Source: a virus. Taken from it: a stretch of DNA of 64,000 nucleotides. Positions 8,778 to 54,900 of the stretch are shown one piece after another. Location: the IMG/VR virus record IMGVR_UViG_3300003323_000567, positions 62,001 to 126,000 of that record; one strand, 5' to 3'. Every line of letters begins with the position of its first letter. The stretch's first letter is position 1. The notes beneath the pieces were generated by a model, which saw only the letters and a program-made list of their open reading frames with translations, had not been told where the DNA came from and searched no databases. The translations under genes were made by a program, and so were the position numbers.

Positions 8778-9665
8778 TTATTGGTTTTGTTCTTTCTTTT
8801 TTCTAACTGCATTGTTTCTTTTTGCGTACTGAAACTTTATTCTCGCTTCAGCACTCTTTGGTTCTATATTCAACCTTTCCCTCCTCTCAAGAATTCTCTG
8901 TTTTGTCTCTTCCAGCATCTCCTCTGTTATCTGTTCCTTGGGAAGACCAGTTTTGCTACTGGCCACAAGTCTGAGGTAATTTGGAGACAATTTCTGAGAT
9001 TGAGAGGCATATTTACCGTTTTTCTTTATGTCTTCTCTTCTTTTAAGAGTTTGTGCTCTTCTTTCTTCTATCATCTCTGGAGTAATATCTTCGTTCTTTA
9101 TGCCTGAGAGCCTGAGTAATTGTCTTACATAACAATCATCCAGATTATCTCTGTTCTTTCTTGTTGATCTTTTTGGGACTGCTCCTATCTTCTTAAGAGC
9201 TGCTAGTTTCTCAAGCCTTTCTCTTTCTGCTATTATTTCGGCTCTTTTCTCATCAATCATCCATCGTTTAACATCCTTTGCTTTCATCTTCCCTCGGGCA
9301 GTGAGGAGCTTAATAATGTAGCTATCTTCGAGGTTTAATCTGGCCTTTTCAGCCTTGATTCTGGCATCTGCTCGTCTTTTACTAGCAAATACAGGATCCT
9401 CTCTTCTCTTCTGGGAGATCTTTTTGTTGGCTCTTTTTTGATAGACTCTCCTTTTGGACTTCTTGAAAGAAGGTCTATTTTTCTTAACACATTGCTTGCA
9501 CATCTTGAGAGGTTTATGTTCACCATCTTTGTTTTTAACAAGATAGAACATATTGATGGGTAATACCCCATGTTTCTTGCACTTGGCATGTCTTAAGCCT
9601 GTTAGCTCAAATTTAATCCTGGCCTCTTCCTGGACCTTTAGTAGCTTTTCTTCTGCTGTGGGCAT
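8778..9665 (-). CDS. zinc-finger protein with three helical repeats, 295 aa
   Basis: The open frame extends further upstream (to 9875), but a terminator hairpin lies at 9691-9720, so I start at MPTAEEKLLK (9665). Residues ~25-60 form a C-x2-H...C-x2-C finger ('AKCKKHG' and 'KMCKQCVKK'). Then come basic helices and three copies of a ~40-residue unit of the form 'L-x-D-x-Y-[IV]-x-x-LL...-M-I-[DE]-E-x-R-x-x-x-L-x-x-R-E' (around residues 118-160, 176-217, 227-268). Such units accompany phage HNH-type or DNA-binding proteins; no HNH catalytic site is visible. Strong positive charge suggests DNA binding. Confidence 0.8.
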   Translation of the reverse strand: MPTAEEKLLKVQEEARIKFELTGLRHAKCKKHGVLPINMFYLVKNKDGEHKPLKMCKQCVKKNRPSFKKSKRRVYQKRANKKISQKRREDPVFASKRRADARIKAEKARLNLEDSYIIKLLTARGKMKAKDVKRWMIDEKRAEIIAERERLEKLAALKKIGAVPKRSTRKNRDNLDDCYVRQLLRLSGIKNEDITPEMIEERRAQTLKRREDIKKNGKYASQSQKLSPNYLRLVASSKTGLPKEQITEEMLEETKQRILERRERLNIEPKSAEARIKFQYAKRNNAVRKKKEQNQ

Positions 9666-9690
9666 GACTGGAGTTTTTGGAGTTAAATTA

Positions 9691-9720
9691 AAAAATGCCC
9701 CCATGTAGAAACACAGGGGC
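9691..9720 (-). terminator. factor-independent terminator (UUCU loop)
   Basis: Minus strand: GCCCCTGTG-TTTCTA-CATGGGGGC then ATTTTTTAA. It lies just upstream of the zinc-finger gene, which helps decide that gene's start. Confidence 0.85.
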
Positions 9721-10044
9721 TCTAACGATTGCTTGCCATATGAAAAAAGTGTACTGGAACCAAATGGAGGGAAATTGTTGTCCACAAATAACGGCCTCCT
9801 ATTGGGCACTCTATCAAGCTGTATTTCAACAACTTGAAACGTACATAAGCGCTCTTGGGGGATATGTTGAAACAACCCCCGCTTGGTTGGTATTCAATCG
9901 TGCAAAATATAATCTCTCTTAGTAGGGTCGGTACTTCCTTCCAACTTCACTGAAAGAAGGAGATTTTGAACATTGACCGTTGCCCTGAGAGATTTGGTAC
10001 ATTTTACACTAATCAAACACCATTAACCATTAAACCTTATCCTG
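9721..10044. other. non-coding stretch between terminator and tRNA-like gene
   Basis: No gene with convincing coding character. On the minus strand there is a weak hairpin near 9935-9965 (CCTTCTTTCA...GAAGG) and an AT-rich TTATATTTTGC near 9903-9913. Open frames here are short or overlap structured RNA. I see nothing else. Confidence 0.4.
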
Positions 10045-10152
10045 TCATCTCTAAGGGGGTCGAACCCTTACCTTGCCTTGACACTGAGAAACAAGACTCT
10101 TTAAGAAAAACCAGCCTACAAGGACAATGCACTACCCTTATGCAAAGAGACG
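10045..10152 (-). tRNA. tRNA-Thr(TGT)-like with 38-nt insertion in the anticodon loop
   Basis: Cloverleaf on the minus strand: acceptor CGTCTCT/AGAGATG (one G-T), D-arm GCA...TGC, anticodon stem TTGTC/GGCAA, T-arm AAGGG-TTCGACC-CCCTT, discriminator A. The anticodon loop is 45 nt instead of 7. Removing 38 nt after CTTGTA restores a normal CTTGTAA loop with anticodon TGT. The insertion would then sit at 37/38, the canonical intron position of archaeal and eukaryotic tRNAs. A normal Thr(TGT) tRNA is present at 23773. Whether this RNA is spliced, decayed or functional as is cannot be seen. Confidence 0.6.
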
Positions 10153-10158
10153 AAAGAA

Positions 10159-10174
10159 GGAAGTAGAAACTTCC
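10159..10174 (-). terminator. small hairpin (UUCU loop)
   Basis: Minus strand: GGAAGT-TTCT-ACTTCC followed by TTC. A weak terminator or processing hairpin upstream of the tRNA-like gene. Confidence 0.4.
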
Positions 10175-10259
10175 CTCAATGAGATTCCCGTGCCTCTCCG
10201 TACAAAGAGGGCTTGGAATGAAATAAATGATGACCCAACCAAAGTCACATGATATTCCG

Positions 10260-10320
10260 ATATTATGTAAGGATTCGGACCTTACTATCCCCTTAGGGAA
10301 TACACAAGCCAGTGTAATAT
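10260..10320 (-). ncRNA. compact 61-nt cloverleaf-like RNA
   Basis: Minus strand folds as: closing stem ATATTA/TAATAT, D-like arm CAC-TGGCTT-GTG, anticodon-like arm TATTC-CCTAAGG-GGATA, and a T-like arm GTAAGG-TCCGAAT-CCTTAC. The T-loop TCCGAAT is close to canonical TTCGAAT. The anticodon-like arm is one of the CCCYNRGGG palindromes (10290). It is about 10 nt shorter than a tRNA. It could be a degenerate Leu(TAA)-type tRNA or a tRNA-like processing signal. Confidence 0.5.
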
Positions 10321-10324
10321 AAGA

Positions 10325-10344
10325 AGGAGGGATAAGCCCCTCCT
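10325..10344. terminator. bidirectional hairpin
   Basis: AGGAGGG-ataag-CCCCTCCT, followed on the plus strand by cccTTTTA and on the minus strand by TCTT. It lies just downstream of the gene at 10368 on its strand, so it probably ends that transcript. Confidence 0.55.
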
Positions 10345-10367
10345 CCCTTTTAGTTAACACTTTGTAA

Positions 10368-10910
10368 TTAAGCCTGACCCCTCATATCTGACATGTCTTG
10401 ATCAGATATGGCGGGACTTGTCGCTCTTCTGATGGTTCTAACCTGTGTTGCTCTCAGGGTTCTTGTAGCCTGATTTAACAGATCTTTTGGTACCATTTCT
10501 TCGACAGGCACTGCTATTGTCCTGAAGTCTTTATCATCTTCAGGAATCTTAGACAGAGTTGTCTTGAAATAAGTAACTTTCCCATCAATAATTCGAGGAG
10601 CTTTGTCCTCCTGATTTGCCATCTGTGGGAGTGACCACATCTCCCTGTTTATGTGGAGATTAGGTATCTCTTGTCCCACAGGGAACTGAGCAACAGTGCT
10701 GCTTCTCACGGGTTGAGTATGAGTCCTGGTATTGTCAAGACCAGTCTCTGCCCCAATTAGCTCGCCAAGAAGCTTTGAGCTCTCAGACAGGGTTTTATTA
10801 ACCCCATCTCTTCCCTTTTCAATGAAGACTACATTTGTCATCTCAGTCCATGCACCTGTGGATGGATCCTGAGTCTCAAATGTGTCCCCGTGCCTTATTA
10901 CTGTTATCAT
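10368..10910 (-). CDS. hypothetical protein, 180 aa
   Basis: Starts MITVIRHGDTFETQDPSTGA. The N-terminal 35 residues look like a small beta unit; the remainder is low in hydrophobics with Thr/Arg-rich stretches ('LRATQVRTIRRATSP'), probably partly disordered. It is not a phosphoglycerate mutase despite 'IRHGD': no second catalytic His motif follows. Function unknown. Confidence 0.75.
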   Translation of the reverse strand: MITVIRHGDTFETQDPSTGAWTEMTNVVFIEKGRDGVNKTLSESSKLLGELIGAETGLDNTRTHTQPVRSSTVAQFPVGQEIPNLHINREMWSLPQMANQEDKAPRIIDGKVTYFKTTLSKIPEDDKDFRTIAVPVEEMVPKDLLNQATRTLRATQVRTIRRATSPAISDQDMSDMRGQA

Positions 10911-10928
10911 TACAATGCTACAAGTGAA

Positions 10929-11076
10929 TCAGGATTTAAAGTGTTTATAATGAACGCTGTAAACCTGACCTTCCAAGGTAGTTCGAACTATAGAGATCTC
11001 CTTCAGTTCAGATGTGTATACCCATCTTCCCCGAGGGAGAATAAGAGACAATGAAAATAGGGGCCCGGATAGACAT
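10929..11076 (-). pseudogene. small ORF with apparent -1 frame break
   Basis: ATG at 11076 reads MSIRAPIFIVSYSPSGKMG and soon stops. The -1 frame from the same place continues protein-like 'WVYTSELKEISIVRTTLEG' and 'VYSVHYKHFKS' to TGA at 10929. The break coincides with the CCCCGAGGG palindrome at 11029. It may be a frameshifted gene, a programmed -1 shift, or chance. A longer open frame in the second phase (to 11315) exists but its upstream part is Cys/Phe-rich and unconvincing. Confidence 0.35.
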
Positions 11077-11369
11077 CCAGCCCCTGGATTTGTTAAATAA
11101 TAATCTTTGAAAAACAAAAGGAAGGGAGGTAAAAACCTCTCTTCGTATTTGATTGTATTATGGTTTTCCCATTTTACAAACAAAAACTGTAGAAAAACTT
11201 CAACAAAAATATAATTACGACAGACAAACCAACATAAAATGAGTCCCCTATGAGAACATAGAGGACTTGATTGGAAGGGATTGGGCCTTTGTTGAGCTTT
11301 TGACAGACTCCCCAACCCCTCTCAATGGCTCAATGAGAAGATTGTAGCATGCTTATCTCCGCAGGGGGA
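11077..11369. other. gene-poor stretch
   Basis: Contains a weak minus-strand terminator-like hairpin at about 11118-11147 (GAGAGGT-ttt-ACCTCCC then TTCCTTTTG) and AT-rich DNA. I see no supported gene. Confidence 0.4.
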
Positions 11370-11654
11370 TTAGCTTCTTTTACGTGGAATAAAAGTAACA
11401 ACATACACGTTGTTCCTTCCAACCAACTGACCCGAAGTATAAACTTTGCAGGATTTCCAATCTATGAAACCCTGTCTATGGCATTCCACATAATAAGCAT
11501 CGTCTTTGGGCAAGGTTTCTCCTTGATGTAGGGGAATCCAACGGTGCATAAGGTCGTGTAATTCTACCTTTCTCACAAACAACTTCTCTGCCTGCGCCAC
11601 ATGGTAGCATCCTATCTGGAGCTGGGGCTGAAAGCTGTAAGCCTTGGACTTCAT
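11370..11654 (-). CDS. hypothetical protein, 94 aa
   Basis: Soluble, beta-rich protein starting MKSKAYSFQPQLQIGCYHVA; 'AYYVECHRQGFIDWKS' and 'NNVYVVTFIPRKRS' look like strands of a small domain. No family recognised. It is an isolated gene flanked by non-coding DNA. Confidence 0.65.
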   Translation of the reverse strand: MKSKAYSFQPQLQIGCYHVAQAEKLFVRKVELHDLMHRWIPLHQGETLPKDDAYYVECHRQGFIDWKSCKVYTSGQLVGRNNVYVVTFIPRKRS

Positions 11655-11686
11655 ATATCTGAGGTATTGATTACAGAAAAAAGCAC

Positions 11687-11728
11687 AGCCTCATTAGGAC
11701 AAGATTATCCAGGTTTTGGCTGTGTGAT
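11687..11728 (-). ncRNA. 41-nt hairpin-closed element
   Basis: A 7-bp closing stem CACAGCC/GGCTGTG surrounds an inner GGAC...TCC hairpin. Size and layout resemble the other compact structures in this genome, but there is no T-loop. Low-confidence structural call. Confidence 0.3.
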
Positions 11729-11894
11729 ATTTAATGACACATTCTATGAGAACTAATTGTGAGCTGAGACAAAGCATACCCACTTTTACATGGATATGCT
11801 TGATAACCAAAACAATGTAAATTAAAGCAGGGAGCATAGAAATGCCCCCTCGATTGGTGATTGAAATAGTCCCATCTTTAACAGAAGGGGCCAT
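11694..11894 (-). CDS. doubtful small membrane ORF, 66 aa
   Basis: Open frame with one hydrophobic stretch (MLPALIYIVLVIKHIHV). It overlaps a terminator-like hairpin at 11829-11850 and the element at 11687-11728, which argues against a gene. Listed because the ATG follows directly after the tRNA-like gene and a membrane peptide is possible. Confidence 0.25.
   Translation of the reverse strand: MAPSVKDGTISITNRGGISMLPALIYIVLVIKHIHVKVGMLCLSSQLVLIECVIKYHTAKTWIILS
11829..11850 (-). terminator. hairpin with UUCU loop
   Basis: Minus strand GGGGGCAT-TTCT-ATGCTCCC, then TGCTTTAAT. Same loop and closing pair as other left-arm terminators, with a poor T-run. Confidence 0.5.
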
Positions 11895-11896
11895 GG

Positions 11897-12001
11897 TTGT
11901 TCCTGCCTGAATCGAACAGACATCCTATATTGATGAAAAAGGGTTCATGTTTAAAAATACCCTTGCACCTCTATAGCGCTCTACCGTTGAGCTAAGGAAC
12001 A
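11897..12001 (-). tRNA. tRNA-like gene with ~34 extra nt in the anticodon loop
   Basis: Minus strand: perfect acceptor TGTTCCT/AGGAACA, D-arm GCTC-AACGGTA-GAGC, anticodon stem CTATA/TATAG, T-arm GTCTG-TTCGATT-CAGGC, discriminator A. Total 104 nt: the excess lies inside the anticodon loop and itself contains a hairpin AAGGGT...ACCC followed by TTTTT. I cannot name the anticodon. The conserved arms argue against random decay. It could be an intron-bearing, insertion-bearing or decoy tRNA. Confidence 0.6.
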
Positions 12002-12008
12002 GTATAAA

Positions 12009-12043
12009 AGGAGAAGGAGGCCGTGGATTTAACCTCCTTTCCT
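12009..12043 (-). terminator. factor-independent terminator
   Basis: Minus strand GGAAAGGAGG...CCTCCTTCTCC then TTTTA, located between the 35-aa membrane gene and the tRNA-like gene. Confidence 0.7.
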
Positions 12044-12087
12044 AGTATGTAGTAGAAGCGTTATCCCATTAAAGAGGGTTAAAACTA

Positions 12088-12195
12088 CTACAACCATCTT
12101 GAGAAGATAGCATAGAAAAAGAGTATGAATATGATGGCTCCTGTTATAAGGCCACTCAAATCAGTCTTCTTCTTGTATCTACGACCGTAGTTCAT
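12088..12195 (-). CDS. small single-pass membrane protein, 35 aa
   Basis: ATG at 12195: basic start MNYGRRYKKKTDLSG, then LITGAIIFILFFYAIFSRWL and TAG. One clear membrane helix with a positively charged cytoplasmic N-terminus. Coding character is good despite the size. Confidence 0.65.
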   Translation of the reverse strand: MNYGRRYKKKTDLSGLITGAIIFILFFYAIFSRWL

Positions 12196-12227
12196 ATTAT
12201 TGATTTAGGGGATACATTTTGAAAAAG

Positions 12228-12262
12228 GGCAGGTCAACTCCCGGCACCTCCCCCTTACTTTT
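12228..12262 (-). terminator. factor-independent terminator
   Basis: Minus strand GGGGGAGGT...ACCTGCCC followed by TTTTTC. It precedes the 35-aa membrane gene. Confidence 0.7.
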
Positions 12263-12353
12263 AAGTGTTCGGAAAATTACCAATTAACTGTACTGTACAA
12301 ATGAGAGCGTCGGTTATCTGCATATGATGGGAGCTGTTCCCGACTTATCAACA
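12263..12353. other. structured non-coding DNA
   Basis: Contains GTCGG...CCGAC and GGGA-acagc-TCCC pairings at about 12309-12348. It could be another tRNA-like element, but no T-loop is recognisable. Nothing firmer can be said. Confidence 0.25.
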
Positions 12354-12393
12354 GAGAAAAGAGTTAAACATGGGCCTTAGGGTTGCCCATGTT
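12354..12393 (-). terminator. terminator-like hairpin
   Basis: Perfect 9-bp stem AACATGGGC/GCCCATGTT, then TAACTCTTTTC on the minus strand, just downstream of the lipoprotein gene. Confidence 0.6.
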
Positions 12394-12396
12394 GGA

Positions 12397-12516
12397 TTAA
12401 TGATACCCTACGTATCCCTTGGTGCCATAACAGCCACTTTTAGGACCAGTACAGGAACTCATAATCATCATACCAAGAACCAGTGCTAGGATTGCTACCA
12501 TCCATTTCTTTATCAT
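12397..12516 (-). CDS. small lipoprotein, 39 aa
   Basis: ATG at 12516: MIKKWMVAILALVLGMMIMS, then SC, then TGPKSGCYGTKGYVGYH. A type II signal peptide with lipobox 'IMSSC' predicts a lipidated Cys at about residue 22 and a mature peptide of only ~18 residues. Tiny lipoproteins ending in GC-Y-x-x-K-x-x-x-G-Y are, from memory, common in Bacteroides phages. Surface exclusion or envelope modification are possible roles, not shown. A terminator follows. Confidence 0.75.
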   Translation of the reverse strand: MIKKWMVAILALVLGMMIMSSCTGPKSGCYGTKGYVGYH

Positions 12517-12555
12517 AATATCTATTTATAGGGGTTCAAATTCTGTAGTTAAGAA

Positions 12556-12583
12556 GGAGAGAGAAGAATTACTCCCCTCTCCT
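12556..12583 (-). terminator. terminator-like hairpin
   Basis: Minus strand GGAGAGGGGAG-taattc-TTCTCTCTCC then TTCTT. Stem is imperfect. Confidence 0.5.
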
Positions 12584-12784
12584 ATATTCAGAGTTATCTG
12601 GAGCACAGGATTAATCATGACATCTTCATAATGCAATTATTTCATTAGTGGAATGCCACAAGATCAGCCTTATCAGAGCGTTTTCATAGGTGGTAATTTT
12701 AGTTCTATGAGGCTCCTTTATCCCAGGTTTTCTGAGACACTCCTGTAATATCTTTACTTGTTTGTGTGACAAGGGCTAATTTGA
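12584..12784. other. gene-free stretch
   Basis: No open frame above about 30 codons with an ATG on the minus strand, and no clear RNA gene. I see nothing supportable in it. Confidence 0.4.
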
Positions 12785-12871
12785 GAAAAAACCACCCCAG
12801 GAATGAGGTGGTGAGCGTACCTATGAGAAAAAACTGGTGAGCGTGAGGATGAGTAGGGGTTCGCCCACCAG
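12785..12871 (-). terminator. two tandem terminators in a direct repeat
   Basis: Minus strand: ACCACC...GGTGGT followed by TTTTTTCTC (12785-12812), and CTGGTG...CACCAG followed by TTTTTTCTC (12826-12871). On the plus strand both copies begin GA-GAAAAAAC and contain GGTGAGCGT, so the unit is duplicated. They insulate the gene at 12927 from the region to its left. Confidence 0.8.
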
Positions 12872-12881
12872 AAAGAGTTTT

Positions 12882-12903
12882 CCCAAGGATAGAAATCCTC
12901 GGG
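12882..12903 (-). terminator. hairpin with UUCU loop
   Basis: CCCGAGGAT-TTCT-ATCCTTGGG on the minus strand, without a T-run. Likely a 3'-end stabilising hairpin of the gene at 12927. Confidence 0.5.
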
Positions 12904-12926
12904 CTTGTGATTGAATTGATACACCT

Positions 12927-13238
12927 TTAAACACTCTTCAGTACTTTACATACCACTATATCTTCCAGCATTATTGATTCTACCATTTCCCCCAGGGGGA
13001 TAGGACAATCAACAGCATTGAAAAACAGGGTGACACGTTTATCTTTTATTAATTGAGCAAACTTAGTAGCTGCTCTTTCATGCTGATGTTGAACAAGATA
13101 GGCTATATCTATGAGATCTTCTTGTTGTCCGATGCTGACAACACTCTTAACATGTTGAATATCAAGGAGTGAGAGTAATTCCACAACAGATCTCTTAGTT
13201 ATTTTTGCTTTGAGTCTTCTTTTCGTAAGTACGCTCAT
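12927..13238 (-). CDS. hypothetical protein, 103 aa
   Basis: I use the ATG at 13238 (MSVLTKRRLKAKITKR). The longer frame to 13343 would overlap the small coiled-coil gene at 13291 and has an unnatural Ser/Leu-rich start. Basic N-terminus followed by a helical, then beta-rich domain ('VTLFFNAVDCPIPLGEMVE'). Not recognised. Confidence 0.7.
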   Translation of the reverse strand: MSVLTKRRLKAKITKRSVVELLSLLDIQHVKSVVSIGQQEDLIDIAYLVQHQHERAATKFAQLIKDKRVTLFFNAVDCPIPLGEMVESIMLEDIVVCKVLKSV

Positions 13239-13290
13239 AGGAATAATTTGGGAGAGGACTAAATATCCTCTCCTGATTAGATAGTGTGGT

Positions 13291-13464
13291 TTACTTAGTG
13301 AACTGTTGGAGCTCAATCTTGAGAGCATTAATCTCTGTAACAAGATCCTGTATCATCTGGGGGGCACCGTTCCCAGAAACCTGACCTTTGGCAACCTTTT
13401 CCTTCAGCTGCTCAAGTTGTCTTTCTTTCTCCGCTAGTTCTGCCTTTTTTTGATTGTATGTCAT
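13291..13464 (-). CDS. small coiled-coil protein, 57 aa
   Basis: ATG at 13464, MTYNQKKAELAEKERQLEQL then KEKVAKGQVSGNG, ending in a second helix to TAA at 13291. Heptad-like Leu spacing predicts a coiled coil. Its ATG overlaps the TAA of the gene at 13464 by one base (TAATG), which supports it. Confidence 0.75.
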   Translation of the reverse strand: MTYNQKKAELAEKERQLEQLKEKVAKGQVSGNGAPQMIQDLVTEINALKIELQQFTK

Positions 13465-13853
13465 TATAAACTAATAATTATCATACCTGAGTCAGTTTGC
13501 CTTACACTGGGCCCTCCTGAGCCAAACCCGAAGCTGAACACTCCTTCCTTCTCGCTCTTTTCTCTCCTTTCCTTCCTGGCTTTACAATCAGGACAGGTTT
13601 CTTCATAGAGCTCTTTGTATGCTTCTTCTTTGATCGAGGCTGCATTTACTATTAGGAGAGTATACTCCTGAATGTCCTGACTAATAGAAGCACAATACTG
13701 TGCAAAGGTGAGAATGTCAGCTTTTTTATCATTAGCTTTGACTAGGGATTTTACCAAGTCTTTTGCTGATTTAATAAGCTGGTCATATCTTTCCTGTGAC
13801 AAGCCGAGACCTTCTGTGAAGGTATTTCTTGGTTCGTTTAATTTCAGTTCCAT
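13464..13853 (-). CDS. hypothetical protein with CxxC, 129 aa
   Basis: Mostly helical; near the C-terminus 'EETCPDCKARKERREK' provides a C-x2-C that could bind metal if the protein dimerises. The tail is Gly/Ser-rich and ends in a short strand. The leader before the ATG is A/C-rich. No family recognised. Confidence 0.75.
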   Translation of the reverse strand: MELKLNEPRNTFTEGLGLSQERYDQLIKSAKDLVKSLVKANDKKADILTFAQYCASISQDIQEYTLLIVNAASIKEEAYKELYEETCPDCKARKERREKSEKEGVFSFGFGSGGPSVRQTDSGMIIISL

Positions 13854-20729: not shown

Positions 20730-20800
20730 GCCCTCATAGCTTAATGGTAGAGCTCGAACCTTTTAAGTTTGAGATCCAAGTTCGATCCTTGGTGGGGGTA
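20730..20800 (+). tRNA. tRNA-Lys(TTT)
   Basis: Acceptor GCCCTCA/TGGGGGT, anticodon loop CTTTTAA, T-arm CCAAG-TTCGATC-CTTGG. Regular cloverleaf. Confidence 0.9.
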
Positions 20801-20809
20801 CAGAAATAT

Positions 20810-20880
20810 TCCCTTGTAGCTCTAAGGTAGAGTAGATGACTCTTAATCATCGGGCGAAGGTTCGATTCCTTCCAGGGGAA
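20810..20880 (+). tRNA. tRNA-Lys(CTT)
   Basis: Acceptor TCCCTTG/CAGGGGA, anticodon stem GATGA/TCATC with loop CTCTTAA, T-arm GAAGG-TTCGATT-CCTTC. Confidence 0.9.
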
Positions 20881-20881
20881 C

Positions 20882-21058
20882 ATGGCAACTAAAGATAAGA
20901 AAATCAGGAAGCTGAAGGACAGGATAGAGAAGATGGAAGCAGATATGTATAAAGAGTTGAGACAAAAGACATCTTCAACTGCAGAGATCAGCGTACATAA
21001 GTATCAAGCCAGATTGGCTCAAATGCATCTGGAGCTTCGGGAACTCGAAAAGAAATAG
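20882..21058 (+). CDS. small coiled-coil protein, 58 aa
   Basis: ATG directly after tRNA-Lys(CTT): MATKDKKIRKLKDRIEKMEA, continuing as a Lys/Glu/Leu helix and ending ELRELEKK, TAG. A single long helix or coiled coil is expected. The next ATG follows one nucleotide after the stop. Confidence 0.7.
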   Translation: MATKDKKIRKLKDRIEKMEADMYKELRQKTSSTAEISVHKYQARLAQMHLELRELEKK

Positions 21059-21059
21059 T

Positions 21060-21266
21060 ATGAAGATTACGTTTCAAGAGATGGCTCTAAGGGGTAAAGA
21101 GATCTTGTCTAGGCAGGGGCCTGTTACATTAGAGCAGGCTAGGGAGCAAGTAGAAAGACTTAAGAAGAATTCAAAATGCTCCATAGCACAGGGGTTGAGT
21201 GCATCTGCCTTACAAGCAGTCGACCTTGGTTCGAGTCCAAGTGGAGCAACCCAAAAGGAGTTATAG
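21060..21266 (+). CDS. small protein whose 3' end runs through tRNA-Val, 68 aa
   Basis: MKITFQEMALRGKEILSRQG then 'PVTLEQAREQVERLKKNSK' looks like a genuine helical protein. From about residue 39 the codons are the tRNA-Val gene itself and run into tRNA-Arg. Either the tRNA sequence was inserted or recruited into the 3' end of the gene, or the true gene has been truncated by it. Unknown function. Confidence 0.5.
   Translation: MKITFQEMALRGKEILSRQGPVTLEQAREQVERLKKNSKCSIAQGLSASALQAVDLGSSPSGATQKEL
21177..21249 (+). tRNA. tRNA-Val(TAC)
   Basis: Perfect acceptor TGCTCCA/TGGAGCA, anticodon stem TCTGC/GCAGT with loop CTTACAA, T-arm CTTGG-TTCGAGT-CCAAG. Overlaps the coding frame at 21060-21266. Confidence 0.9.
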
Positions 21267-21328
21267 CTCAATGAATAGAGCCTCTGCCTTCTAAGCAGAT
21301 TATCAAGGTTTGATTCCTTGTAACTCCT
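21257..21328 (+). tRNA. tRNA-Arg(TCT)
   Basis: Acceptor GGAGTTA/TAACTCC, anticodon loop CTTCTAA, T-arm CAAGG-TTTGATT-CCTTG. Confidence 0.9.
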
Positions 21329-21417
21329 CAGGTCTGTTTCCAGCTTCAGCGTGGAGTACAAAAGTTGGGGTTTTCAACTGCAGTGTATTACTTTCCATAA
21401 AGTGATCTCCTGCAGCC
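21329..21417 (+). other. spacer with hairpin
   Basis: Contains AGTTG-gggttt-CAACT (about 21363-21379). No gene; possibly a processing element between tRNA-Arg and tRNA-Asn. Confidence 0.3.
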
Positions 21418-21491
21418 AGGACAGTTAGCTCAGAGGAAGAGCAAAGAGCTGTTAACTCTTAGGCCGGGATTTCGAAATTCCCACTGTCCTC
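21418..21491 (+). tRNA. tRNA-Asn(GTT)
   Basis: Acceptor AGGACAG/CTGTCCT, anticodon loop CTGTTAA, T-arm with TTCGAAA-type loop. The next gene's ATG follows immediately. Confidence 0.88.
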
Positions 21492-21779
21492 ATGAAAGAA
21501 TATCTGTTGAGTATAGGTTTTGAACAGAAGTTACCTTGGCAGTTTCACACTGATTCTTACATGGTAACTGAACTTGAAGAAGATTCCAACTCCATACCCC
21601 TCTGGAGCATCACAAATAAGAGGTATGATGAAAAAGTTTTCAGAGGAAGAATAAGGAGTGTTGAAGAGTTTAAGCAGATCTTTATGCTTGTGAAAGAGGA
21701 TTATGACTTGACACAGGATGAAATAAGTTGGGCAACAGCTATAAGAGGTAATGAAGAATTAAATAAGATTGCGGGGTAG
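21492..21779 (+). CDS. hypothetical protein, 95 aa
   Basis: ATG immediately after tRNA-Asn; starts MKEYLLSIGFEQKLPWQFHT. Acidic, alpha/beta, ending with a helix ('EISWATAIRGNEELNKIAG'). The stop codon TAG lies inside the acceptor/D region of tRNA-Met, a 10-nt overlap. No family recognised. Confidence 0.75.
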   Translation: MKEYLLSIGFEQKLPWQFHTDSYMVTELEEDSNSIPLWSITNKRYDEKVFRGRIRSVEEFKQIFMLVKEDYDLTQDEISWATAIRGNEELNKIAG

Positions 21780-21843
21780 ACTGGAGAGGTGCCAGCTCAG
21801 TCTCATAAGCTGAATGACATGGGTTCGATTCCCATCCCCGCAA
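21770..21843 (+). tRNA. tRNA-Met(CAT)
   Basis: Acceptor TGCGGGG/CCCCGCA, anticodon loop CTCATAA, T-arm ATGGG-TTCGATT-CCCAT. A second CAT tRNA at 22480 means one may be an initiator or a tRNA-Ile2; I cannot tell which. Confidence 0.88.
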
Positions 21844-21846
21844 CTA

Positions 21847-21909
21847 ATCAGGTCTCCCACCCTGGTCCAGAGGGAGAGCAATGGGGCACTTGGGGACTGC
21901 CTACCTGAT
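21847..21909 (+). ncRNA. 63-nt tRNA-like element without T-arm
   Basis: A 7-bp closing stem ATCAGGT/ACCTGAT encloses a CTCCC...GGGAG arm and a GCA...TGC arm. No TTCGA T-loop. It fills the space exactly between tRNA-Met and tRNA-Gly. Confidence 0.4.
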
Positions 21910-21911
21910 AT

Positions 21912-21982
21912 GCATCACAAGCATTGTGACGATGCTCCATCCTTCCAAGTTGGAGAGCAGGGTTTGATTCCCTGGTGGTGCT
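21912..21982 (+). tRNA. tRNA-Gly(TCC)
   Basis: Acceptor GCATCAC/GTGGTGC, anticodon stem CCATC/GTTGG (one T-T mismatch) with loop CTTCCAA, T-arm CAGGG-TTTGATT-CCCTG. Confidence 0.85.
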
Positions 21983-21983
21983 C

Positions 21984-22211
21984 ATGGATAAGAATGAAGT
22001 AAAGAAGAGATTATATAAGGAAAACCCAGGTGCAATCTTACTGGAGGTAAGAGCAGATGGTATGTTATACCAAGCTCTCTTTAAAGGGGATGATGGGTTA
22101 CCTGATATAAACCAAAAAGTAAAATTCCTTGTTCCCTTAGGGGAAATAGGAGAAGTAGTATGGAATAGGATAATGGATGCTAAATTATTAATAAGATGGT
22201 TACAAGATTAA
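21984..22211 (+). CDS. hypothetical protein, 75 aa
   Basis: Start at the ATG at 21984 (MDKNEVKKRLYKENPGAILL); an in-frame GTG further upstream lies in tRNA-Gly. Alpha/beta with 'VRADGMLYQALFKGDDGLP' and 'KVKFLVPLGEIGEVVWNRI'. The CCCTTAGGG palindrome occurs in it (22134). Not recognised. Confidence 0.75.
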   Translation: MDKNEVKKRLYKENPGAILLEVRADGMLYQALFKGDDGLPDINQKVKFLVPLGEIGEVVWNRIMDAKLLIRWLQD

Positions 22212-22229
22212 AAGAAGGTGAGGAGCTAT

Positions 22230-22302
22230 GCTCCCATCGTCTAATCGGTTAGGACGTTACTCTTTCAAGGTAAAAACGAGGGATCATAACCCTCTGGGAG
22301 TA
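22230..22302 (+). tRNA. tRNA-Glu(TTC)
   Basis: Acceptor GCTCCCA/TGGGAGT, anticodon stem TTACT/GGTAA with loop CTTTCAA. The T-arm GAGGG-ATCATAA-CCCTC has an unusual loop in place of TTCGAAA. Confidence 0.85.
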
Positions 22303-22322
22303 CAACATATTTAAGCTACATT

Positions 22323-22387
22323 GCGGACAAATGCTCTTAACTGAGCTGAGACCTGATAGGTTTCATACAGCAATTTGTCTGTCCGCC
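22323..22387 (+). tRNA. degenerate tRNA-Ile(GAT)-like gene lacking a normal T-arm
   Basis: Perfect acceptor GCGGACA/TGTCCGC, D-arm GCTC...GAGC, anticodon stem GAGAC/GTTTC with loop CTGATAG. In place of the T-arm is only a short ACA...TGT pairing; total 65 nt. An intact Ile(GAT) gene is at 22637. Confidence 0.5.
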
Positions 22388-22399
22388 ATGTGGCTAGTT

Positions 22400-22471
22400 C
22401 GAGGGTGTGGTGTAATGGTTGCATAACATCTTGTCACGGTGCAGGTTGGGGTTCGAGCCCCCCACTCTCGA
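22400..22471 (+). tRNA. tRNA-Asp(GTC)
   Basis: Acceptor CGAGGGT/ACTCTCG, anticodon loop TTGTCAC, T-arm with GGTTCGAGCC. Confidence 0.88.
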
Positions 22472-22479
22472 CTTAAATC

Positions 22480-22550
22480 GGCTCATAGTTTAAGAGGTCA
22501 AAACTCCCGACTCATAATCGGATGTTCCCAGATCATGGCTGGGTGAGCCA
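22480..22550 (+). tRNA. tRNA-Met(CAT), second copy (or Ile2)
   Basis: Acceptor GGCTCAT/GTGAGCC, anticodon stem CCCGA/TCGGA with loop CTCATAA. T-loop ATCATGG is atypical, like that of tRNA-Glu. Followed by AACCA. Confidence 0.8.
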
Positions 22551-22597
22551 ACCAATCTTGAGGGTGCATGTCCCTCAGGGACAACTAGAGGATAAAG

Positions 22598-22632
22598 TGG
22601 GGGAGGGTAAGAACCCCCTCTCCCCCTTTATC
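22598..22632 (+). terminator. factor-independent terminator
   Basis: GGGGGAGGG-taagaa-CCCCCTCTCCCCC followed by TTTA. It divides the tRNA cluster after tRNA-Met. Confidence 0.75.
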
Positions 22633-22636
22633 AAAT

Positions 22637-22708
22637 TGCCTGGTAACTCAGTGGTAGAGTGCCTCTCTGATACGGAGTGAGTGGATAGTTCGATTCTATC
22701 TCAGGCAA
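22637..22708 (+). tRNA. tRNA-Ile(GAT)
   Basis: Acceptor TGCCTGG/TCAGGCA, anticodon loop CTGATAC, T-arm GATAG-TTCGATT-CTATC. Confidence 0.9.
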
Positions 22709-22712
22709 CAGT

Positions 22713-22766
22713 AGGGACAGCTAAGTAACTGGAAGGGATGAAAGTTAGCCTTCGGGTTCTGTCCAA
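22713..22766 (+). ncRNA. compact structured element with UUCG hairpin
   Basis: GGACAG/CTGTCC closes a structure holding a CTAA...TTAG arm and a CC-TTCG-GG hairpin. It fills the spacer between tRNA-Ile and tRNA-Ala and lacks a T-arm. Confidence 0.4.
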
Positions 22767-22772
22767 ACACCA

Positions 22773-22846
22773 GGGGTTACATGTACCAAGGTTGGCGAGG
22801 GATCCTTGCAAGATCTCTGAGAAGAGTTCGATTCTCTTTAGCTCCA
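22773..22846 (+). tRNA. tRNA-Ala(TGC)
   Basis: Acceptor GGGGTTA/TAGCTCC, anticodon stem GGATC/GATCT with loop CTTGCAA, T-arm AAGAG-TTCGATT-CTCTT. Confidence 0.85.
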
Positions 22847-22854
22847 CAGATTTA

Positions 22855-22886
22855 TTTGGAAATCTCAAAAAGACTTCCTACATTTG
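22855..22886 (+). promoter_or_regulatory. Bacteroidetes-type promoter P3
   Basis: TTTG (22855), 20 nt, TACATTTG (22879-22886). Nearly duplicates P4 at 23519, including flanks and the start of the following micro-ORF. Confidence 0.85.
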
Positions 22887-22893
22887 CAACATC

Positions 22894-22962
22894 ATGACAA
22901 AAGTATTATCATATTCCAGTCTATATCTCTTGATCAAAGATCGAGCTGGGATGGTTATATAG
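22894..22962 (+). CDS. leaderless micro-ORF, 22 aa
   Basis: ATG lies 7 nt after the -7 box, so it is at or within a few bases of the predicted transcript start. Reads MTKVLSYSSLYLLIKDRAGM, VI, TAG. Its first codons match those of the micro-ORF at 23555 (M-x-K-V). A terminator follows at 22986. Confidence 0.4.
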   Translation: MTKVLSYSSLYLLIKDRAGMVI

Positions 22963-22985
22963 TTTTTTTTGAAACCGTGGAGGTG

Positions 22986-23013
22986 CCCCAGCTTTTCTAG
23001 GCTGGGGTTTTTT
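22986..23013 (+). terminator. factor-independent terminator
   Basis: CCCCAGC-ttttctag-GCTGGGG followed by TTTTTT. It ends a transcript of only about 120 nt from P3, or attenuates transcription into tRNA-Leu. Confidence 0.9.
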
Positions 23014-23021
23014 GTTTTTAT

Positions 23022-23094
23022 ACCTTGGTAGCCCAACGGAAGAGGCAGTAGTCTTAGGAACTACACAGTGTGGGTTCGAATCCCACCCTCGGTA
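23022..23094 (+). tRNA. tRNA-Leu(TAG)
   Basis: Anticodon stem GTAGT/ACTAC with loop CTTAGGA, T-arm GTGGG-TTCGAAT-CCCAC. The acceptor ACCTTGG/CCTCGGT has two mismatches in the middle, and the variable loop is short for a tRNA-Leu. Anticodon TAG reads CTA; it is not an amber suppressor. Confidence 0.8.
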
Positions 23095-23179
23095 CATGTT
23101 TATAATTTGTTTTGGAGAGTGTATGTGGCTAGTAGAGTTCAATGGACTGACTACTAATTGGTTATGCAGATTGGTATAA
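23095..23179 (+). other. spacer with nested hairpin
   Basis: AGTAG-AGTTC-aatg-GACTga-CTACT forms a nested hairpin at about 23130-23156. No gene seen. Confidence 0.35.
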
Positions 23180-23254
23180 GTCCCTGTGATGTAATTAGGT
23201 AACCATACCAGACTTAAAATCTGGGTTTTGTAGGTTCAAGTCCTACCAGGGATA
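23180..23254 (+). tRNA. tRNA-Leu(TAA)
   Basis: Acceptor GTCCCTG/CAGGGAT, anticodon stem CCAGA/TCTGG with loop CTTAAAA, T-arm GTAGG-TTCAAGT-CCTAC. Confidence 0.85.
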
Positions 23255-23259
23255 CATAA

Positions 23260-23345
23260 GGAAGGTAGCACGGGATGCTCTGTAACTAGTCTTGAAAACT
23301 AGGCCAACGTGAAGAGCGTTGATGGTTGGACTCCATTACCTTCCT
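23260..23345 (+). tRNA. tRNA-Ser(TGA)
   Basis: Class II tRNA: acceptor GGAAGGT/ACCTTCC, anticodon stem CTAGT/ACTAG with loop CTTGAAA, long variable arm CAACG...CGTTG. Confidence 0.88.
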
Positions 23346-23352
23346 CATATAA

Positions 23353-23436
23353 GGAGAGCAAACCTAAGAAGCCTTAGGAGCAGACTGCTAATCTGACTGT
23401 CCCTTAGGGGATGTGGATCGAGACCACTACTCTCCT
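23353..23436 (+). tRNA. tRNA-Ser(GCT) with palindrome as variable arm
   Basis: Acceptor GGAGAGC/ACTCTCC (last pair mismatched), anticodon AGACT/TGACT-type stem with loop containing GCT, T-arm GTGG-ATCGAGA-CCAC. The long variable arm is GTCCCTTAGGGGAT, i.e. one CCCYNRGGG palindrome (23401). Confidence 0.82.
23401..23409. repeat. example of the dispersed palindrome CCCYNRGGG (47 perfect copies)
   Basis: Perfect copies by eye start at: 1751, 1834, 2090, 3720, 4290, 5154, 7894, 8450, 10290, 11029, 12990, 14097, 15765, 16631, 17147, 17606, 18022, 19344, 20499, 22134, 22572, 23401, 25347, 25915, 27817, 29395, 31836, 37519, 38842, 40230, 41066, 42782, 43938, 45709, 46257, 47159, 47611, 48094, 48513, 49471, 50908, 51811, 52983, 53681, 58422, 61028, 63649. 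About 20 more sites have one mismatch. Flanks are often T/A (TTCCC...GGGAA). Present in coding and non-coding DNA on both arms. Confidence 0.9.
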
Positions 23437-23441
23437 CATAT

Positions 23442-23512
23442 TGAGTGGATGCCAGGGCAGCAGGCAATGTCTGTAAAACATAGGCACTAGGGTTCGAGTC
23501 CCTACCACTCAA
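23442..23512 (+). tRNA. tRNA-Tyr(GTA)
   Basis: Acceptor TGAGTGG/CCACTCA, anticodon loop CTGTAAA, T-arm TAGGG-TTCGAGT-CCCTA. Short variable loop, unusual for a bacterial tRNA-Tyr. Confidence 0.85.
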
Positions 23513-23518
23513 CTTTTA

Positions 23519-23550
23519 TTTGGTAGTCTCAAATAACTACCATATATTTG
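23519..23550 (+). promoter_or_regulatory. Bacteroidetes-type promoter P4
   Basis: TTTG (23519), 20 nt, TATATTTG (23543-23550). Sequence around it duplicates P3. Confidence 0.85.
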
Positions 23551-23554
23551 CATC

Positions 23555-23635
23555 ATGAATAAAGTATTTCGTCATACGTGGTTTACCTGTCAGCCTACTC
23601 AACCAGTGGGAAGGGGTGATGTCATGTATGATTAG
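23555..23635 (+). CDS. leaderless micro-ORF, 26 aa
   Basis: ATG 5 nt after the -7 box. Reads MNKVFRHTWFTCQPTQPVGR then GDVMYD, TAG. Its start (ATCATGA-AAAGTATT) parallels the micro-ORF at 22894. A terminator follows at 23657. Confidence 0.4.
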   Translation: MNKVFRHTWFTCQPTQPVGRGDVMYD

Positions 23636-23656
23636 AATATAAAGTTCTTGCATGCC

Positions 23657-23687
23657 AACCCCCTTTCTAACCAGATTGGGGGTTTTT
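23657..23687 (+). terminator. factor-independent terminator
   Basis: AACCCCC...GGGGGTT followed by TTTCTTTTT. Second member of the duplicated promoter/micro-ORF/terminator module. Confidence 0.85.
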
Positions 23688-23695
23688 CTTTTTAT

Positions 23696-23767
23696 CTAGT
23701 TGTAGCCTAGAGGCCAGGCACTTGCTTTGGGAGCAAGATGACGCTAGTTCGATCCTAGCCAGCTAGA
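23696..23767 (+). tRNA. tRNA-Pro(TGG)
   Basis: Acceptor CTAGTTG/CAGCTAG, anticodon stem CTTGC/GCAAG with loop TTTGGGA, T-arm GCTAG-TTCGATC-CTAGC. Confidence 0.9.
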
Positions 23768-23772
23768 CATAC

Positions 23773-23846
23773 TCCAGATATGCTTTGATGGTGAAGCGCC
23801 TGTCTTGTAAACAGGAATAGAGAGTGTTCGAGTCACTCATCTGGAT
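23773..23846 (+). tRNA. tRNA-Thr(TGT)
   Basis: Acceptor TCCAGAT/ATCTGGA, anticodon stem CCTGT/ACAGG with loop CTTGTAA, T-arm GAGTG-TTCGAGT-CACTC. Normal counterpart of the interrupted tRNA at 10045. Confidence 0.9.
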
Positions 23847-23851
23847 CATTT

Positions 23852-23924
23852 GGTGCTCAAGCAATTGTGGTCAATGCACCTGTCTGAAGAGCAGGCAAAC
23901 TCAGTTCGATCCTGAGGGGTACCA
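23852..23924 (+). tRNA. tRNA-Phe(GAA)
   Basis: Acceptor GGTGCTC/GGGTACC, anticodon stem CCTGT/GCAGG with loop CTGAAGA, T-arm CTCAG-TTCGATC-CTGAG. Confidence 0.9.
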
Positions 23925-23931
23925 CTTATAA

Positions 23932-24003
23932 TGCCCTTTAGCACAATGGTAGTGCGTGAGTCTTTGGTCCTCATTATGTAAGGTTCGATTCCTACAGGGG
24001 CAT
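23932..24003 (+). tRNA. tRNA-Gln(TTG)
   Basis: Acceptor TGCCCTT/AGGGGCA, anticodon loop CTTTGGT, T-loop TTCGATT. Confidence 0.87.
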
Positions 24004-24005
24004 CT

Positions 24006-24075
24006 GTGGAGATACCAATTCGGTGAATGGGCTTGGCTGTGAACCAGGTAAGGCAGTTCGACTCTGCACTCCACC
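24006..24075 (+). tRNA. tRNA-His(GTG)
   Basis: Acceptor GTGGAG/CTCCAC, anticodon stem CTTGG/CCAGG with loop CTGTGAA, T-arm GCAG-TTCGACT-CTGC. Confidence 0.87.
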
Positions 24076-24078
24076 CCA

Positions 24079-24149
24079 CTACCCTTCGTTCAAAGGAAGG
24101 ACTTGAAGCTACGAACTTCAGGATATAGGTTCGAATCCTATAGGGTAGT
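24079..24149 (+). tRNA. tRNA-Arg(ACG)
   Basis: Acceptor CTACCCT/AGGGTAG, anticodon stem TGAAG/CTTCA with loop CTACGAA, T-arm ATAGG-TTCGAAT-CCTAT. ACG needs A34-to-I editing by host TadA to read CGN codons fully. Confidence 0.87.
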
Positions 24150-24154
24150 CATAC

Positions 24155-24223
24155 ATCTCTCAGGCCATGGGGGCCAAACAGTCTCCAAAACTGCAGGATA
24201 AGGTTCGATTCCTTAGAGGGGTG
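24155..24223 (+). tRNA. tRNA-Trp(CCA)
   Basis: Acceptor ATCTCTC/GAGGGGT with discriminator G, anticodon stem ACAGT/ACTGC-type with loop CTCCAAA, T-arm TAAGG-TTCGATT-CCTTA. Confidence 0.88.
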
Positions 24224-24230
24224 CCGATAA

Positions 24231-24301
24231 GGCCAATTCGCCAAGTGGCAAGGCCGAGGCTTGCAAACCCTCTATCACCTGTTCGATTCAGGTATTGGCC
24301 T
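24231..24301 (+). tRNA. tRNA-Cys(GCA)
   Basis: Acceptor GGCCAAT/ATTGGCC, D-arm GCC...GGC, loop TTGCAAA with a C-C mismatch closing the anticodon stem, T-arm ACCTG-TTCGATT-CAGGT. A TGC (Ala) reading is possible if the stem is shifted, but the D-arm is Cys-like. Confidence 0.78.
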
Positions 24302-24306
24302 CCAGG

Positions 24307-51917: not shown

Positions 51918-54900
51918 TGGCTAAAAAGATCAATAAAAAGAAAGCTCCCAAAGCAAAAGCAGGATATTGGCTGCAGGTAAATCCTGAAAAACTTACGTAT
52001 GAAAATTTGCCATGTGTAGGTTGCAAAGATAAGCTGATGGCAGCAGCAGGAATGTATATGGATCCTGGTCCTAAAATACCTGGACTTGCTCAAAGTATAT
52101 CAGATTATTATGGAGGATATCCAGAATCAGACCTTTCTCCCTCGAGAGTACAGGGCCCTGTTCCTATTGGAACACCACCAGACACCTCCAAGGTAAAGCC
52201 AGGAAAGCCTCTTGGACCAGAAGCTTTGCAATCGCCTGCTAAAAAACAGGGACAAGGATACAACGCAGGTAATATGGCCTTAGCTGCCATGACTGCTTTT
52301 GATGCCATTCTTCCAAATAGAGTATCAAAACAACAGGTTGTTCAACCCCAAATGGCATATAACCCCATGCCTTATGGATATGGCTCTCAAGCTCTTATGC
52401 AAGATGGAGGCTCTGTTCCAATGCCAAAAACTACCCTAAAACCTGAACAAGAAAAGAGTTATCAGGAATGGAGAACAAAGCTTCCAAAGAATCTTCAAAG
52501 TGAAGACAACTATAACCTTAGACAGTTATGGCTTGAGAATCCTGGAATAAAGCCATCTGCTAACATGCACTTTCCAGATAAGTATAAATTACCAAATCAT
52601 CCTACCTTTTCTAGTGAGAGCATGTATTTCAATCCAACAAATCAATACATGGCAGGGCGCTGGAATGAGACAGATAGTTCATGGAACTACATACCATACA
52701 ATAGTCAATTTAAGCAGCCTGTTGTAGAAATGAAGAAAAACGGAGGATTTGTTCCAAAGGCAGATCAAGGATACTATATGGGAGAAGATGAAAATAACAG
52801 TCCGAGTGCTAAAAATGGTAAAACAATGAAGTCAAAAAAGACTAAAAAATATGATGATGGGGGAGTAGCACCAGCTCTCTTCGGTCTAATGGACACCTTT
52901 TACGGAGAACTTGGAAATGCAAAACAAGGACTCCTAAATGCCTTTACAGGAGGAGCTGGAGGAGGCCTGCCAATTCCTATGGCCCTTGGGGGTACTTTGG
53001 AAGATAAGCTTATGGAGGCAAAGGATGGTCACTGGATCCAGAAGGCAGTGAATCCTGCACACAAGGGATATTGTACTCCTATGACAAAGTCTACATGTAC
53101 ACCTCGTAGGAAAGCTCTTGCTAAGACATTCAAGAAGATGGCTAGAAATAGAAAGAAAGATGAAGGGGGATTCATACAGCCAGGTTATGATCAGTATAAA
53201 GAGGGGGGAATCATTCCTGATAATATGAGCATATTTAGCCCTCACGATTATGAGAATGGGGGGAATGTAAATGGAGGAGCAAAGATCAATATGGTTGATG
53301 CAAAATACCCTAATACTGATCTAATGGAACAGTGGTTGCTTTACGAGCAAGGAGGGAATGTTAATGGGGGAGCCAAGCTTAGAGAAGTGGGAGCCACCTA
53401 CCCAAATGCCGATTTGTTAGAACAATGGCTACTCTATGCTAATGGTGGAGACTTGAAGCCTAGTGCTGTAAAGGATAGTGATAATAGAATGAGCCTTGGA
53501 GGCAAGAAAGTTAAAGTATACAATACTGCTCGGGAAAGGGACGTAAAATACCGTGATGATGGAAGTGCTCTGGCACCAATGAGTTTAGTAGAATATAATC
53601 CTGGCTATAATGCAAACATTCCTGAACCAGGATATAATCCGGCAAACTTAAACCCTAAGACAGACTACTCTGTTACGTTCCCCCAGGGGTCGTCTCAGCA
53701 GACTTCCTATTTCCCCAACTACTCAGCATGGAACTCCTTTGTAAACAATAATTCTAACTTGCTGATCAGCTCACAGGAAAGACCAGGAAGTGGTTCTGCT
53801 GCGTTTAAAAACAGGCCAATGGAACAAGGTGGAAATGTAAATGGTGGTGCTGATATAAGGGAGGTTGGGGCTAATTATCCTAATACAGACCTCATGGAAC
53901 AATGGCTTCTGTACAAAGATGGTGGAACTCTGAGTTCAGATAAAGCTAAGGAAATGCTGAGAGATGGTACAGCTCATGGAAAGAAGCTTACCAAGAAGCA
54001 GAAGCAGTACTTTGGTATGGTAGCTGCTGGAAAGGCTCCTACAGGAACCACTCTCTTTGGAAGTGGGGATCCAAAGCCTGCAAGCCCACAGGTAGATCAA
54101 TCTCACTTTAGCTTTGGCAACACACCAATTGATAGAGATGCTCTTTTAGCAGATAGAATTGGTGAAATTATAGGAAATGCCTATGATCCATATAGCAAGG
54201 AAGGTAGAGCAGTTTTGAGTCAGATTCAGACAGGATGGAATAATCCTCAATTTGCTTCTGATTTAGGAGTCAGAATTAAGTCACTTCAAATGGATCCCAC
54301 TTTTCAGAAGCTCACGCCAGAACAAAGGATAACCAGGTTTTATGAAACTGGAGCTACTGGAACAAGTGGGCTAGATGATTTCATAAGAAGAAGCAAGCAT
54401 ATAGGAGGAAACCCTGCTGCATATTGGCAAGGAAATTTTGCCAACAAGCAAAGGATGAATAGAGCAATACCTACTGTAACATTTGAACAAGGTGGAGTAA
54501 TGTATGATGATGGTGGTCAAATAGACACAATGTGGGGGGGATCTGCAGACCTGGAGAGCTACAATCCTTATGATGGGGGAACTGTGGAGTTCAACGGGGA
54601 CTCACATGCCCAGGGGGGTATAGGAATGGCCTATAATGGAAATCCGGTTGAAGTTGAAGGGGGAGAATATGCCTCAAAAGATGGAGATGGAAATCTCACA
54701 ATTTATGGTAATATGTTAATACCAGGAACAAAAACAAAGTTCAAGAAAGCAGCTAGTGCAATAGCTGATAGAGAAAAAAGGTACGACAGACTGGTTACCA
54801 AAGGTTCAGACCTTGTAAATGGAGCTAATCCTGCAAGCAAATTTGAGCAGCTCAAATTCAATGCTGGAAAAGTAATGATGCAGGGGGGACAAATGGGAAT

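Follow-up and report, generated by a model that had tools for sequence, protein, structure and literature searches.

In the window analysed here, a stretch of 64,000 nucleotides (nt) that corresponds to bases 62001-126000 of a 126-kb virus record (IMGVR_UViG_3300003323_000567, labelled G000), two transfer RNA (tRNA)-like elements, A (10045-10152) and B (11897-12001), lie on the minus strand where genes are few, apart from an ordinary plus-strand cluster of 23 canonical tRNA genes (20730-24304) that ARAGORN calls without introns. Judging from its structural proteins, the source virus is a crAss-like bacteriophage: its TerL, portal and capsid match PHROGs families, and the portal has its relatives among crAss-like phages, of which Leptolyngbya phage Lbo-JY46 (31%) is the nearest with a name. 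A DNA search of named phages gave no close relative, and a Pfam search with the ten genes around A and B gave nothing convincing. IMG/VR holds one divergent relative (3300025914_000009, labelled G001), with about 77% DNA identity over long stretches and 91% in the portal, which carries orthologs of both elements (A' at 59239-59344 and B' at 57521-57628); a virus-wide scan with patterns specific to A, B and a third element, C, found homologs in this relative only. We conclude from their sequences that A and B are tRNA-shaped, non-decoding RNAs under selection for structure.

Both elements possess the body of a tRNA. Each matches the Rfam tRNA model (RF00005, gathering score 29) over its full length, with 34.3 bits for A and 41.3 bits for B and with ends falling exactly at 10045-10152 and 11897-12001, so that nucleotide 1 lies at 10152 in A and 12001 in B and the discriminator at 10045 and 11897; no other Rfam family matched either element. 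All stems are fully paired in both (acceptor 7/7, D 4/4, T 5/5). In A, the 5' acceptor strand CGUCUCU (10146-10152) pairs with AGAGAUG (10046-10052), followed by the D arm GCAU-AAGGGUA-GUGC (10129-10143) and the T arm AAGGG-UUCGACC-CCCUU (10053-10069). In B, UGUUCCU (11995-12001) pairs with AGGAACA (11898-11904), the D arm is GCUC-AACGGUA-GAGC (11978-11992), the T arm GUCUG-UUCGAUU-CAGGC (11905-11921), and a CCA is encoded in the DNA at 11894-11896. Both retain U8, A14, GG18-19 and the T-loop TTCGA, and the Levitt pair 15:48 is A-U in each. The minimum-energy fold of B is the cloverleaf, with the anticodon arm as a long three-part composite hairpin, and it is better than all of 200 shuffles; B and B' fold alike (z -3.2 and -3.1). 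The initial annotation, which described two real tRNA-like genes at these positions with well-paired arms, canonical T-loops and enlarged anticodon domains each holding a hairpin of its own, is thus borne out by the model matches and the folds.

What is missing is the part that reads the codon. The anticodon domain measures 52-55 nt instead of the normal 17, and none of A, A', B and B' has an anticodon set in a 7-nt loop with U33, an extended arm helix being found in its place. In A, this swapped arm (10073-10127) is a long stem in which UUG(u)CCUUG (10119-10127) pairs with CAAGGCAA (10073-10080) and closes an apical loop of 38 nt (10081-10118). In B (11925-11976), it consists of CUAUA/UAUAG, GGUG/CAUC, a C/UUU internal loop, AAGGGU/ACCCUU and a 14-nt apical loop. 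These arms do not fit the simple insertion of 34-38 nt at position 37/38 that had been proposed for the two genes, since the CTTGTA of A overlaps the extended stem that closes the 38-nt loop and the arm of B is a three-part helix. ARAGORN without introns calls neither element; with introns allowed, it reads A as Lys(CTT) with a 16-nt intron and B as Glu(TTC) with a 31-nt intron, each with a mismatched anticodon stem, and we discarded both calls because they break that stem.

As the initial annotation had suggested, relatives were searched for the same genes, and the comparison with the orthologs in G001 indicates that these shapes have been maintained. The 26 stem pairs of B and B', registered by hand, show 10 substitutions, no broken pair and four double (compensatory) changes, while the 16 acceptor, D and T pairs of A and A' show nine substitutions, no broken pair and three double changes; under random substitution the respective p values are 3.5e-5 and 1.2e-4, in tests that presume independent substitutions and are based on one genome pair. 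The 10:25 pair in the D arm of B, for its part, is G-C in this phage and A-U in the relative. The swapped arms behave similarly: the extended stem of A is rewritten in A' as UUACUUCUC/GAGAAGUAA, with 9/9 positions paired, and the apical loop motifs GGCyG, UUUUUCU and AAGAGU are conserved between the two, while in B the inner stem covaries with B' and both C/UUU and AAGGGU/ACCCUU are invariant. Since neutral decay would preserve pairing in this way with a probability of about 1e-4 or less, A and B are selected as tRNA-shaped RNAs that do not decode.

The minus strand of the 126-kb genome was also scanned for a T arm, a 7-base-pair acceptor and U8, which gave exactly four elements (A to D, two of them outside the window) against none in ten Markov-randomised genomes, so that A and B are more than chance. 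The anticodon region is abnormal in all four, and G001 carries orthologs of all four. In element C (55542-55636 of G000, minus strand; see also locus L040; ortholog C' at 76009-76102 of G001) the variable arm is unusually long and the anticodon loop odd; between the two phages the variable-arm stem is altered and the loop TAAATTCTGGGTA kept. A class II tRNA, with its long variable arm, fits other hits of this work and perhaps C in part, but not A or B. Element D (51961-52018 of G000, or 1961-2019 of locus L009, minus strand; ortholog D' at 81196-81253 of G001) has no anticodon arm at all, just a 9-nt linker, ATTCTTGTC. D and D' are identical at 54/57 bases; they differ in pair 1:72, which goes from U-A to A-U, and in a G-U pair that becomes G-C. 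D sits between a gene for a small basic Cys-rich protein and one for a putative DNA polymerase/exonuclease, the ATG of which comes within a few nt.

In both phages, A, B and C each have a terminator-like hairpin within about 21 nt upstream, which carries a U or pyrimidine tract. That of A (10156-10177, minus strand) carries a U tract and ends 3 nt before the element, an equivalent hairpin preceding A' in the relative, and that of B (12014-12039, minus strand) carries a pyrimidine tract and lies 12 nt before it. More broadly, positions 9400-13500 of the window contain 13 terminator-like hairpins, where 3.2 would be expected, and A, B and a tentative further tRNA-like element, E, each come directly after one. 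E (10260-10320, minus strand), found in the T-arm scan, has a T arm GUAAGG-UCCGAAU-CCUUAC (10267-10285), an acceptor of 5-6 base pairs and no clear D arm, in a stretch conserved in the relative. The relative also holds, at 71558-71618 of G001 (locus L029), a sequence resembling tRNA-Ile(GAT), in which the D, anticodon and T arms are good and the acceptor stem is unpaired.

Elements of both kinds, with the anticodon arm deleted or a long domain in its place, recur in dozens of other phages. We scanned the viral collection with two patterns whose fixed letters were D- and T-arm consensus only; spacing too short for an anticodon arm gave 39 stretches, and spacing far too long gave at least 119, of which 80 were read. 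No acceptor filter was applied, and the acceptor is nonetheless paired at six or more of seven positions in 27/35 distinct arm-less and 56/73 distinct long-domain hits, the mean being 6.03 and 6.05 pairs as compared with 3.35 and 3.09 with shuffled partners. Among acceptor-filtered hits, 22/24 arm-less and 50/53 long-domain elements have G15-C48 or A15-U48 as the tertiary Levitt pair, a feature that played no part in the selection. In an alignment of 30 arm-less elements, whose acceptor part was partly selected and whose rows are of unknown degree of kinship, 98% of cells are paired and the covariation score is 0.83, against 0.21 in shuffles. Class II tRNAs account for about 13 of the 53 distinct long-domain hits, and extended anticodon stems of 7-10 base pairs, like that of A', occur in four long-domain loci (L160, L106, L093 and L166). 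Seven others (L099, L104, L122, L129, L144, L148 and L157), on phage contigs of differing size, share a recurrent inserted domain of the approximate form CGCU...GCAnA...GUUCCUA. In prokaryote genomes, the arm-less pattern gave 19 stretches over 84,980 species, of which about four are convincing. Some Bacteroidota genomes (L211, L213-L216, L221, L222, L227 and L229) contain chained tRNA-like units in hybrid or permuted arrays, where each acceptor stem seems to be formed across two units, from the 3' strand of one and the 5' strand of its successor.

Cultured phages are included as well. Thirteen records of Aeromonas T4-like phages share a conserved insert-type array, which is annotated inconsistently (tRNA-Val, tRNA-Leu, tRNA-OTHER, tRNA-Ala or nothing) and whose second element shows stronger conservation in its inserted domain than in its T stem; one insert-type element, annotated tRNA-Phe, occurs in Pectobacterium phage CBB. 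A and B, with compensatory changes in the tRNA body and a conserved domain in place of the anticodon, conform to the replaced-domain type exemplified by Aeromonas phage Aeh1. In Aeh1 itself (240-646 of locus L238) three odd tRNA-like elements follow one another, the first of which seems to hold a second T arm in its variable region. Phages therefore appear to use the tRNA shape for something besides decoding. In the open-access literature, preprints not covered, we found no description of phage tRNAs that lack or replace the anticodon arm.

The arm-less elements, or mini-tRNAs (loci including L030, L051-L089 and L231), have a recurrent neighbour. In at least 11 phages the element lies 4-13 nt after (once 8 nt before) a gene for an undescribed protein of 58-84 amino acids with a basic N-terminus and a Cys-rich C-terminus. 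A search with the protein only led to a new locus, L231, where an arm-less element follows 12 nt downstream, and to paralogs (L234 and L236/L237) without one. A motif search for the protein in the long-domain loci, a tblastn search of named phages and a Pfam/PHROGs search gave no such protein, no match and nothing convincing, respectively, and its AlphaFold model is of low confidence (predicted local distance difference test 68, predicted template modelling score 0.35); neither A nor B has a protein partner that we could find. Of 33 arm-less elements, nine (L051, L053, L056, L060, L069, L077, L080, L088 and L231) have G3:U70, the alanine identity pair, mostly with A73, compared with 26/728 ordinary tRNAs, 23 of the 26 being tRNA-Ala; D of this phage does not have it. 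A second arm-less group (L052, L054, L062, L066, L072, L087 and L219) begins with UGCG and has U-U or U-A as its first pair.

We consider it probable, with some reserve, that A and B encode small non-decoding RNAs on a tRNA scaffold, which are cut out by the tRNA-maturation enzymes of the host and act through the swapped arm. RNase P, RNase Z and the CCA enzymes recognise the acceptor, the T arm and the elbow, not the anticodon. With acceptor, D arm, T arm and elbow retained and the codon-reading arm replaced by a longer hairpin with a conserved motif of its own, these enzymes, reading elbow and acceptor, could excise the RNA from a minus-strand transcript, the 5' end being made by RNase P and the 3' end by RNase Z or by exonucleases and CCA addition. 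The product would be a stable RNA that the host machinery treats as a tRNA and that is unable to decode, and the specific function would fall to its swapped arm, which would most probably bind a protein or an RNA during infection. The processing, the stability and the action in trans are what we infer from the sequences. Several observations weigh against this interpretation: the fold of A alone is no better than that of its shuffles (z -1.0), the terminator-like hairpin directly upstream of each element complicates the picture of its transcription, and the covariation of A and B is based on two sequences, as just one relative carries both. Moreover, the DNA encodes a CCA only for B of this phage, and the two phages have different discriminator bases (A versus G) in A and in B alike, which also speaks against a fixed amino-acid identity.

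The same features could instead serve as punctuation in cis, with RNase P and RNase Z cutting at the folds to separate phage messenger RNAs or to set their ends, the RNA being otherwise jobless and its distal arm free to vary or to vanish. Every element does lie between same-strand genes, several of them with a start codon 0-30 nt away or a stop codon 4-13 nt before them; the arm-less elements retain just what RNase P requires, and the U-tract hairpin ahead of A, B and C would give a protected 3' end. However, conserved arm motifs in A, B, C and the Aeromonas array are unexpected for a free arm, no conserved gene abuts A or B directly downstream and the ATG after B is missing in the relative, and we find this explanation rather unlikely. 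It is improbable that the RNAs are decoys or sponges which titrate host defence or toxin enzymes attacking the tRNA elbow or CCA end, or which occupy tRNA-binding sites: elbow and acceptor are present, the anticodon loop is absent and the arm-less type is enriched in viral contigs relative to prokaryote genomes, but no defence target is known and the conserved motifs of the swapped arm would go unexplained. Decoys directed against anticodon nucleases, as the initial annotation had it, are unlikely in that form, since those enzymes would fail to recognise RNAs without an anticodon loop.

Two further possibilities raised at the outset fare worse. That A and B are insertion-damaged tRNA relics retained by chance could draw on the anticodon domain being the most altered part, on a normal tRNA-Arg(TCG) that the relative has in the flanking context of A, and on the degenerate look of E and L029. 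Non-compensatory changes in the arms, the mark of a pseudogene, are nevertheless not what the relative shows; all ortholog stem substitutions keep pairing, with seven double changes over A and B, in compensated rather than decaying stems, and together with the fold of B this makes relics very improbable. That the extra sequence is a small intron at tRNA position 37/38, taken out by a new splicing system, we find hardly credible. Only in A does removal of an insert (38 nt) nominally restore a normal loop, the plausible Thr loop CUUGUAA; the site overlaps the helix, and the matching place in A' has neither TGT nor U33 and is part of a 9-base-pair stem of other sequence, while no excision yields a normal loop in B or B'. 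The 4-base-pair helix between two internal loops in B superficially resembles the archaeal bulge-helix-bulge, but the order of its bulges is reversed relative to the archaeal one. The search for an RNA ligase or splicing endonuclease was negative, RtcB, RNA_ligase and tRNA_int_endo being unmatched in the genomes of this phage and its relative with positive controls, and the arm-less D has nothing to splice. On the strength of the extended stems and of the orthologs, with no splicing enzyme matched in either phage, we rejected an intron-bearing tRNA. A group I intron was rejected as well, there being no Rfam intron match in the window and too little extra sequence for a catalytic core.

Beyond A and B, it is possible, and we put it forward tentatively, that a class of non-decoding tRNAs not described before, with the anticodon arm replaced or deleted, is widespread in phages and works in dedicated ribonucleoproteins of infection; the arm-less members would pair with the new small basic Cys-rich protein, and a subset with alanine identity (G3:U70, A73) would be a miniature alanyl carrier reminiscent of transfer-messenger RNA (tmRNA) and SmpB. 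Programs count phage tRNA genes, and these are taken as codon supply. If some of them cannot decode, their role would lie elsewhere, and current annotation as Val, Leu, Phe or nothing would conceal it.

Among known systems, the intron-containing pre-tRNAs of archaea and eukaryotes also have extra sequence in the anticodon domain, but A and B have no restorable anticodon loop, no splicing enzyme was matched in the phage or its relative, and the extended stem is re-paired in the ortholog. Like tmRNA (RF00023) with SmpB, they are tRNA-like without a decoding arm, and the arm-less relatives adjoin a small basic protein, a subset of them with G3:U70; A and B, however, have a full D arm and show no tag reading frame, pseudoknots or RF00023 match, for which reason we rejected tmRNA as their identity. 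The Aeh1-type Aeromonas array (annotated as tRNA-Val/Leu/OTHER) and the tRNA-Phe of CBB share the tRNA body and the long conserved non-anticodon domain, but with an inserted domain of their own (a CUG-loop hairpin, then CnGCAA), so that the likeness to A and B is architectural only. Finally, the stable RNAs C and D of phage T4 (rnaC and rnaD, or species 1 and 2) are 119-139 nt long, come from the tRNA region, are not tRNAs and are of unknown function (PMC3014915, PMC9697503). A canonical T arm, CCGGG-UUCGAAU-CCCGG, forms the end of rnaC, although the acceptor helix of rnaC is partial, the T4 RNAs score no tRNA match and we saw no resemblance to A or B in sequence. Homology with A and B could not be shown, and the T4 RNAs would seem to be the closest precedent for unexplained stable phage RNAs. 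The elements described here are defined and conserved, and occur also in cultured T4-like phages of Aeromonas, which would allow a direct test of the old question posed by T4 RNAs C and D.
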